A stretch of DNA of 64,000 bases from an uncultured Prochlorococcus sp. (GTDB lineage: Bacteria > Cyanobacteriota > Cyanobacteriia > PCC-6307 > Cyanobiaceae): the NCBI GenBank assembly GCA_902519235.1, contig CABYJE010000003.1, forward strand, positions 1-64,000, in the 5' to 3' direction. Position numbers and translations under genes: made by a program. Numbering within the stretch: position 1 is the stretch's first letter; each line of letters starts with the position of its first letter. Positions 15,368-36,341 of this stretch are shown here, piece after piece. The notes under the pieces are model-generated. The model did no database searches. It was not told where the DNA came from and saw only the letters and a program-made list of their open reading frames with translations.

Positions 15368-15568
15368 AAGTTCAGAAGTCTCTAATTAAATAAATAAATA
15401 ACTAAAATAAAAAATAATTTAAAAGATTCAATTATCTAATAAATCCATATCCAACTACCGAAAAAAATACATATAAAACAATCCTGGATAGACTCTAAAG
15501 TTTAAAGTGTTCAATAACATTATTTCTAATATTCCAGATCAAAACAAAAAAAACTTAAAACTTTATGT

Positions 15569-15615
15569 AATCTATATTAAATCTATATAGATTATGTAGA
15601 CAATCTATTTAGATT
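15569..15615. promoter_or_regulatory. Phased palindromic operator candidates
   Basis: AATCTATATtaaat (15569), AATCTATATAGATT (15580), AATCTATTTAGATT (15602); start spacing 11 and 22 bp. Confidence 0.5.
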
Positions 15616-15645
15616 AAATTATTATATAGTTATCGCATAAAACTT

Positions 15646-16143
15646 ATGCCTAGTAATTGGTCTAAAATAAGAGATGAATGGCTTGATAAAACGGCCATTG
15701 CGAAAGATGATGCTAAATGGGCATTAGAAGCTTTAATTAATTCTGAAGAAGAGTTATTTGAAATAGAGCAGAAAATAAAGAATAAAGAGGACGCTATAAG
15801 CCAAGTAAAGTTTTTGAAGAAAAAGGTTAAAGAAACTATTTCCTCTAAAGAAATTAGTCTCGATGATATTGCATTAAATACTTCAAATTCAAACAAAGTA
15901 CAGATCTCAGTACCATCAAACCTTACTTATCTTTTGAAAGTTTGGGCCGCAGCAGAAGGAAGAGATCTATCAAGTGTTGCTTTTCAATGTTTAGAAACTG
16001 GTATAAGAGAAATGAAAAGCAAAGGTTCAATACCTTCAGTAGCAGTAAATAGATATGACTCGGCCTGTCAAAAAAGGATTGCACTAGCAGAAGTAAACAA
16101 TCTATTGGAGAAATACGAATTAGCTCAGGATGAAATCAAATAA
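15646..16143 (+). CDS. Coiled-coil protein with ribbon-helix-helix-like domain
   Basis: KVQISVPSNLTYLLKVWAAAEGRDLSSVAFQCLETGIREM resembles RHH/CopG-type. Confidence 0.6.
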   Translation: MPSNWSKIRDEWLDKTAIAKDDAKWALEALINSEEELFEIEQKIKNKEDAISQVKFLKKKVKETISSKEISLDDIALNTSNSNKVQISVPSNLTYLLKVWAAAEGRDLSSVAFQCLETGIREMKSKGSIPSVAVNRYDSACQKRIALAEVNNLLEKYELAQDEIK

Positions 16144-16145
16144 TT

Positions 16146-16538
16146 ATGAAAAACAGAAAAATCATTAAAGGATACAAAACATTAATATCATCAAGATTTA
16201 ATGTAGATACTTTTGTAGATAAATACAAAGATGGAATAATTTATACTCTTTATTCTGATGAATTTAATTCACTTAAAGTTGGTTTTGCTGAAAATGATAA
16301 GGTTCTAGAAAAAAAATTATCAAGTGAAGCATTGATATTATTGAATATGAAAAAAGGCAAAAAGAAAGATCTTTGTTTATTAATAACCACTCTAAAAGAA
16401 CTTGGTATCAAATATTCAGATAATTTTTATTTCAAATACTCAAGTTCTTTAATTAGACATTTATCAACTTTAGGTTGGCCTGTTGGAAGATCACTTTACA
16501 AGCAAAGAAAAATTAAAAAAGAACTTGTATGTGCATAA
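16146..16538 (+). CDS. GIY-YIG/T5orf172-like small protein
   Basis: GIIYTLYSDEFNSLKVGFAENDKVLEKKLSS resembles the N-terminal GIY-YIG-like core; 2 bp after the upstream stop. Confidence 0.5.
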   Translation: MKNRKIIKGYKTLISSRFNVDTFVDKYKDGIIYTLYSDEFNSLKVGFAENDKVLEKKLSSEALILLNMKKGKKKDLCLLITTLKELGIKYSDNFYFKYSSSLIRHLSTLGWPVGRSLYKQRKIKKELVCA

Positions 16539-35094: not shown

Positions 35095-35802
35095 ATGAGA
35101 ACCATATTAATAAGTGGAGCCAATAGAGGTATTGGACTAAATATTGCACATAAAGAATTAAAAGAAGGCAATAGAATTAGTGTTGGCATAAGAGATTTAG
35201 AATCATTAAAAGGTAGCGCTATTGATCCAAAGAGATGGCCAGAAGGAAAAATTTTGATCAACCATTATGATGCGTTAAAAAAAATTACAGCCGAAAATTG
35301 GATAAAGAATACCGTAGATGAATTTGGAGGATTTGATTCATTAATAAATTGTTCTGGAGTATTATCGAAAGTTCCTTTCTTATACAAAGATGGTGATGAA
35401 AAAGAAATTTTAGATACATTAAACATCAATTTTTTGGCAATTTGGCATTTATGTAGGCTTTCTTGGGATCATTTATGTACCTCTGGAAGAGGAAGGATTA
35501 TTGTTTTAGTTTCAATGAGTGGGAAAAGATCTAAAGGTGATTTAGCAGCTTATTCCTCTTCTAAGTTTGCTTTGATGGGATTATGTCAAACGATGAAAAA
35601 TAAAGGTTGGGATAAGAATATAAGGATTTCAGCAATTTGCCCAAGCTGGGTTAATACAAAAATGGCCCAAAATATCTCTTCCTTAGACAAATCAAGCATG
35701 ACACAACCTGAAGATATTGCTGAAATATGCTCAACAATTCTTAAGTTACCTACCCAATCAGTTCCATTTGAAATTGCCTTAAATTGTAACTATGAAATTT
35801 AA
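35095..35802 (+). CDS. Short-chain dehydrogenase
   Basis: TILISGANRGIGLNIA ... YSSSKFALMGLCQTM. Confidence 0.9.
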   Translation: MRTILISGANRGIGLNIAHKELKEGNRISVGIRDLESLKGSAIDPKRWPEGKILINHYDALKKITAENWIKNTVDEFGGFDSLINCSGVLSKVPFLYKDGDEKEILDTLNINFLAIWHLCRLSWDHLCTSGRGRIIVLVSMSGKRSKGDLAAYSSSKFALMGLCQTMKNKGWDKNIRISAICPSWVNTKMAQNISSLDKSSMTQPEDIAEICSTILKLPTQSVPFEIALNCNYEI

Positions 35803-36341
35803 CCTAAATTAAAAATTAAGTAAGCCATTGAAAGCATTGCAATTGCAATAAATAAACCTTTGATTCGATTAGTTAACAATGAAAAAAGAGATAAATCTTC
35901 AGAAAAATATCCGCCAAAACTACCTGTAATAAATAATATAACCATTGGTAGAGAGGCAATTCCGAAAGAATAAGATATAGATCTTACAAATCCAAAATTT
36001 AAATAATTAAAAATAAAGGAACCTAATGAAAACAATAAAAAAGATGCAAATAGAGTTATGGAAACTTCAGCATCTAAAGTGTGAGGTAAGCTACCCTTTA
36101 ATTCAAATTGCTTTTTACACTCTCTAATTTGTCTTTTAGAAAGCTTTAAATAACCAGTTTCAGGAATTCTTTGCGACTTATATTTTCTTAGTAATCTTGC
36201 TTCAAGAGTTTCTGGCTCCTTAGTCATAATTGATGTTAATAATTCATCTGGCTTTAATTTTTTAATTTTCTTTTCGAGATTATCTGTTTTCCCAATCCTA
36301 TAAAGATCTCCTACTCTAATAAGGTAAACATATCCCGACAT
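35799..36341 (-). CDS. GIY-YIG/T5orf172-like domain fused to transmembrane helices
   Basis: GYVYLIRVGDLYRIGKTDNLEKKIKKL then C-terminal TM segments. Confidence 0.65.
   Translation of the reverse strand: MSGYVYLIRVGDLYRIGKTDNLEKKIKKLKPDELLTSIMTKEPETLEARLLRKYKSQRIPETGYLKLSKRQIRECKKQFELKGSLPHTLDAEVSITLFASFLLFSLGSFIFNYLNFGFVRSISYSFGIASLPMVILFITGSFGGYFSEDLSLFSLLTNRIKGLFIAIAMLSMAYLIFNLG

Follow-up and report, generated by a model that had tools for sequence, protein, structure and literature searches.

The two small adjoining genes studied here, preceded by a row of short palindromic sites set at helical intervals, raise the question of what kind of unit they form: a toxin-antitoxin (TA) or defence module, as had been proposed from the sequence, or a resident operon that controls its own expression. 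The window, that is the whole stretch of 64,000 nucleotides that was analysed, comes from the single-cell genome G000 (1.17 Mb, 71% complete), which is probably a high-light (HL) Prochlorococcus, and its closest database relatives are titled Prochlorococcus. Our literature searches found no paper on the unit. A glyoxalase gene lies upstream of it, and a convergent pentapeptide-repeat gene and a GMC oxidoreductase gene lie downstream. Its features are as follows, with conservation given for 104 distinct HL upstream regions and promoter positions counted from the ATG.

15569 to 15579, plus strand: operator box 1, the half-site AATCTATATTA, read from the sequence; T at -75 is 99% and C at -74 97% conserved.
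15580 to 15593, unstranded: operator box 2, the perfect palindrome AATCTATATAGATT; C at -63 is 100% and G at -56 98% conserved in HL.
15591 to 15601, unstranded: putative degenerate slot of the 11-bp array, placed by the 11-bp register; its TAGA falls in the -35 hexamer.
15597 to 15602, plus strand: predicted -35 hexamer TAGACA, from a consensus scan; conserved in HL.
15602 to 15615, unstranded: operator box 4, the palindrome AATCTATTTAGATT, between -35 and -10; C at -41 is 98% and G at -34 100% conserved in HL.
15620 to 15625, plus strand: predicted -10 hexamer TATTAT, 17 bp past the -35, from a consensus scan; TAT[C/T]AT is conserved in HL.
15646 to 16143, plus strand: gene 1 (P0001, 165 aa), with a predicted helical N-terminal region, a ribbon-helix-helix (RHH) domain at about residues 81-128 and a C-terminal helix; a predicted autorepressor.
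16146 to 16538, plus strand: gene 2 (P0002, 130 aa), a neighbour of gene 1 throughout the family; residues 26-115 or so may form a degenerate T5orf172/GIY-YIG-like domain.

The sequence-only reading had described phased sites upstream of gene 1 with starts 11 and 22 bp apart, and this spacing holds for two perfect palindromes and a half-site. AATCTATATTAAAT begins at 15569, AATCTATATAGATT occupies 15580-15593 and AATCTATTTAGATT occupies 15602-15615; in the window the site at 15569 is only a half-palindrome, and the last site is followed, after a gap of 30 bp, by the ATG at 15646. The palindrome AATCTANNTAGATT occurs without mismatch twice in the window, and these are the sole copies in the 1.17-Mb assembly, while in 19.2 Mb simulated with a first-order Markov model such palindromes arose at 0.04 per 64 kb and never as a pair within 40 bp. 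The array is fixed in the 104 HL upstream regions: the box C/G positions -74, -63, -56, -47, -45, -41 and -34 are 97-100% conserved, and letters between the boxes, for instance at -65 and from -52 to -50, vary freely. Since the conserved C residues follow each other at 11- and 22-bp steps, the three palindromes are better described as a four-slot array of 11-bp units, of which slot 3 is degenerate and overlaps the -35. This slot varies in HL except for TAGACA, G at -47 and C at -45 being 100% conserved. Beyond what had been noted earlier, the sites are thus part of an 11-bp phased array, and this array spans a predicted sigma-70-like promoter (TAGACA-17 bp-TATTAT), a consensus prediction in a region whose count of promoter-like sites is not above that of shuffles.

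The proposal of phased operators depended on the palindromes being conserved upstream of homologues, and it passed this check, since the array is kept there. In low-light Prochlorococcus, where gene 1 identity is 50-62%, TCTA/TAGA boxes stand at the same place. In marine Synechococcus 5-10 consecutive AGYNRCY units follow each other upstream at an 11-bp period, compared with a mean of 1.9 and a maximum of 5 in shuffles. Autocorrelation at lags 11/22/33 gave z = 18.7/13.6/12.5 in Synechococcus, with all other tested lags between -3.3 and +2.7, and z = 21/26/17 in high-light Prochlorococcus, where 11-bp multiples are strongest and other lags deviate too in the AT-rich sequence; these z values describe effects and are not probabilities, because the shuffles ignore relatedness. 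Low-light Prochlorococcus showed z = 10 at lag 11, again with other lags deviating in AT-rich sequence. The middle of the predicted DNA-contacting strand of gene 1 changes from Gln (K-x-Q-x-S) in Prochlorococcus to Thr (K-x-T-x-S) in Synechococcus, and we infer that the box letters co-evolved with this change, from TCTA/TAGA to AGYNRCY, with the geometry kept. The unchanged 11-bp geometry under changed letters is the most striking result of this work, and the array offers a natural experiment in co-evolution, in which the geometry stays constant and the box letters are replaced.

The protein that would read such an array is encoded by gene 1, for which an RHH-like segment had been suggested, and profile comparison agrees. 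HHalign of gene 1 against RHH_5 proteins gave a probability of 96.6% (E 6e-10, 58 columns; shuffled controls <0.2%), with a comparison set that came mostly from HL genomes and in which one row (L190) was itself found with gene 1. Pfam RHH_5 was matched by 4 of 22 gene 1 members, the best E of 2e-4 falling short of the curated cut-off. The sequence profile of an RHH_5/CopG-like protein, a beta-strand followed by two helices, is present in gene 1. In Synechococcus gene 1 is shortened to ~78-83 aa, which corresponds to the RHH part. This part has a dN/dS of 0.009, compared with 0.10 in the N-terminal region and 0.13 in the C-terminal one, and by these estimates, which ignore relatedness, it is under extreme purifying selection. 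An RHH protein with boxes in register within its own promoter, conserved in homologues, is what would be expected of an autoregulated RHH repressor with an operator array, and profile and array conservation together support that part of the sequence-only reading.

Gene 1 was considered as the MED4 'copG', whose transcript is raised in darkness (PMC5082946), and this was not adopted: another RHH_5 protein of ~100 aa fits far better (E ~1e-17), and the paper text carries no locus tag. One strong ~100-aa RHH_5 protein was present in each HL genome checked, near 100 kb, for example L276 in the window's own assembly, and in MED4 expression papers the name 'copG' more likely refers to such a protein than to gene 1. 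One Synechococcus has, immediately upstream of the unit and in the opposite orientation, a gene for a small RHH/ParG-like protein other than gene 1 (L180:1385-1780, minus strand), with Pfam 56B_RHH and ParG matches below cut-off.

Within the pattern searches and the 800-kb sample of one HL genome used to assess exclusivity, gene 1 appears to be a regulator dedicated to this one promoter. The palindrome pair spaced by 22 bp occurred exactly once, at gene 1, in 13 of 15 HL genomes, and a PWM of the HL array scored 68 at the promoter and 2.7 at the next place in the 800-kb sample. In 20 Synechococcus genomes the strict 3-unit pattern was found at the unit's own promoter in 10, and at 4 places elsewhere compared with 5 for the reversed control. 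The second-best PWM match (L284:9606-9655, ~249.6 kb, HL genome G243) lies upstream of an ntcA-like gene and may be a chance match. Exclusivity is not absolute, because of this weak possible second site in one HL genome.

The distribution of the unit bears directly on its nature. Of 151 genomes of the genus, 112 contain gene 1, and so do 48 of the 51 that are at least 90% complete; among 196 near-complete genomes of the family 67 have it, some few by weak matches. Nearly every HL Prochlorococcus and many marine Synechococcus carry the unit, with gene 2 directly behind gene 1 in almost every genome. Synteny is kept in Prochlorococcus, with the pentapeptide gene downstream and often the GMC oxidoreductase, and the Synechococcus loci lack these neighbours. 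Phage records and IMG/VR contigs gave no homologue at the sensitivity used, the gene 2 alignment being too variable for a viral scan, and nothing convincing turned up in PADLOC, NCBIfam or PHROGs. The unit is a core, vertically inherited host operon and not a mobile TA or defence cassette.

Another genus of the family (g31) provided a natural control: three of its genomes (L255, L256 and L257) carry gene 2. The gene 1 profile at E up to 1 matched nothing in them, one being a 99%-complete single contig, and the 11-bp periodicity is absent upstream of their gene 2. The three genomes without gene 1 are also without the array, and the array therefore follows gene 1, in a control that is small (n = 3) and where a very diverged gene 1 may have been missed. 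In L256, a TCTATATTAATAGAC-like stretch ahead of a possible -10 may be an operator remnant.

Taken together, these results make it likely that the unit is a vertically inherited operon of marine picocyanobacteria, autoregulated by the gene 1 RHH repressor on a phased array, with gene 2 as its partner. A type II TA-like unit, in which gene 1 supplies an RHH antitoxin to neutralise a toxin from gene 2 and the two together repress the operon, would account for several of the same features. Gene order, sizes (78+140 aa in Synechococcus) and the RHH autoregulatory operator of this short operon follow the classic layout (PMC4803016, PMC2812701), and in most genomes the genes overlap by 4 bp or are separated by 2 bp, the latter as was described for the window, where the last base of gene 1 is 16143 and the first of gene 2 is 16146. 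However, the unit is core and syntenic in Prochlorococcus rather than patchy and mobile, gene 2 keeps no catalytic signature and matches no known toxin family, and the searches described above gave no phage homologue and no convincing PADLOC match. Nor does the putative toxin occur only with its antitoxin, since gene 2 is kept in the three genomes with no detectable gene 1, a sign that it need not be neutralised. We regard a TA-like function as unlikely, and the earlier suggestion of a TA or defence module was probably wrong.

An autoregulated resident operon could also mark a place on the chromosome. It is conceivable that gene 1 wraps the 11-bp repeats into a superhelix that marks one locus, as a centromere-like (parC-type) or nucleoid-anchoring element, and that autorepression is a side effect. 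ParR of plasmid R1 belongs to the RHH proteins, and the direct repeats of 11 bp to which it binds lie on either side of its own promoter (PMC9426499, PMC5016525); here, too, a protein of RHH type is paired with direct repeats next to the operon promoter, and there is one array per genome. In addition, 24 complete Synechococcus genomes, despite differing record starts, all have the unit at a distance from dnaN of 0.40-0.58 of the circle, a distance computed for ten of them. Core genes commonly keep a constant distance from the origin, however, and the value for HL Prochlorococcus is ~0.37, with the unit some 200 kb away from the skew maximum and with arrays of four slots only. The unit contains no ATPase or filament gene: the genes next to gene 1 are gene 2, which matches no ATPase, and the pentapeptide-repeat gene. 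We consider a centromere-like role quite improbable. Equally slim is the chance that, besides self-regulation, a superhelical complex of gene 1 on 5-10 boxes near the Synechococcus terminus, with gene 2 as partner, organises the chromosome or cell-cycle state. Terminus anchoring was set aside as the main explanation on account of HL Prochlorococcus, where the terminus position is not shared. The unit is close to the skew-derived terminus in the one Synechococcus genome checked (G260).

The self-regulating operon has as its second product a protein that is far less constrained than gene 1. Gene 2 has a dN/dS of 0.39, and its identity outside the genus is 16-32%. It had been described as GIY-YIG/T5orf172-like, and HHalign of its full profile against a T5orf172/MUG113 set built here gave probabilities of 42-72% (P 3e-5 to 3e-4), with scores above 60/60 column-shuffled and 60/60 block-shuffled controls; the Synechococcus-only profile matched more weakly (5-14%). 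A Pfam scan of 22 gene 2 members, on the other hand, found no family match, GIY-YIG included, no invariant Arg or Glu stands in the columns aligned with the catalytic Arg and Glu of T5orf172, and the GIY-YIG motif is lost in several low-light members. The resemblance is suggestive, and a degenerate GIY-YIG-like domain in gene 2 is plausible. AlphaFold2 models of both proteins were poor because only close relatives could be aligned; that of gene 1 (pLDDT 46.6) did not model the beta-strand, and that of gene 2 (pLDDT 46.7) had a strand-strand-strand-helix-helix order compatible with the T5orf172 fold. Foldseek with these low-confidence models, which we do not count as evidence, returned nothing below E 0.2, and profile searches of PDB sequences with both alignments returned chance matches only. 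That gene 2 is an active GIY-YIG nuclease under repression by gene 1, with a part in DNA repair, mobility or phage restriction, would fit its T5orf172 match and its GxxY..IG-like start, but with the catalytic columns not conserved, no Pfam or PADLOC nuclease match and fast divergence, this is the least probable of the explanations considered.

Elsewhere in the window, positions 35799-36341 on the minus strand encode a 180-aa protein, distinct from gene 2, with an N-terminal T5orf172/MUG113 (GIY-YIG) domain above the curated cut-off (MUG113 E 1e-11), followed by hydrophobic segments.

The autoregulated operon would then work as follows, its biochemistry, from cooperative binding and repression to the role of gene 2, being what we infer from sequence. 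Gene 1 dimers would occupy successive boxes, each displaced from the last by one helical turn (11 bp), a spacing that would place neighbouring dimers on one face of the DNA and in contact with each other. In Prochlorococcus the row covers the -35 to the -10 of the operon's sole predicted promoter, and a bound row may shut out RNA polymerase, so that both proteins would limit their own production. Cooperative stacking of dimers could buffer the expression of gene 1 and gene 2, and a long array could give steep, threshold-like repression, holding the operon low for as long as gene 1 is neither removed nor modified. RHH proteins may, however, act as activators as well. Gene 2 would be a small, fast-evolving partner, possibly with a degenerate GIY-YIG/T5orf172-like fold, and a natural candidate for input or co-repressor; its role is most likely ligand or protein sensing, or co-repression that tunes gene 1 binding, rather than catalysis. 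As a co-repressor it would parallel RelE, which acts in this way with RelB (PMC2812701). The sequence-only reading was right about the sites, probably right about RHH autoregulation, and possibly right about the GIY-YIG relationship. The very abundant photosynthetic cells of Prochlorococcus and marine Synechococcus have few transcription regulators. A core one that apparently serves a single two-gene operon must do something worth keeping in a streamlined genome.

Comparison with known systems places the unit beside several of them. Gene 2 shares with T5orf172/MUG113 proteins of the GIY-YIG superfamily the order of predicted elements and the GxxY...IG-like start, but differs in its catalytic positions and in its lack of a Pfam match, as noted above. 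Gene 1 and its array resemble ParR/parC of plasmid R1 in the RHH protein, the direct 11-bp repeats by its own promoter and, as proposed here, autorepression (PMC5016525, PMC9426499). Unlike ParR/parC, the unit here is chromosomal and core, has no ParM-like ATPase and carries an unrelated partner gene, and its boxes are palindromic units that in HL sit on the promoter core instead of flanking it. The half-sites of Arc are spaced 11 bp apart. In the Arc repressor and RelB operators, adjacent RHH dimers bind cooperatively on one DNA face to boxes over the promoter (PMC2812701), as is proposed here, but there two dimers occupy one 21-24 bp operator, whereas the Synechococcus array runs over 5-10 successive turns and gene 2 matches no known toxin family. 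The omega repressor of pSM19035 is alike in that RHH dimers polymerise along a repeat array at target promoters (PMC4803016, PMC9499535); its repeats are 7-bp heptads, and it is plasmid-borne with many targets, whereas the units here are of 11 bp and apparently serve one target. TrcR of Anabaena, which is reported missing in Prochlorococcus, is likewise an RHH protein of cyanobacteria and acts as a repressor at the -10 of its own promoter (PMC10272220), comparable to the autorepression proposed here, but TrcR has one 18-bp motif and a regulon of several genes, whereas the promoter described here carries an array.
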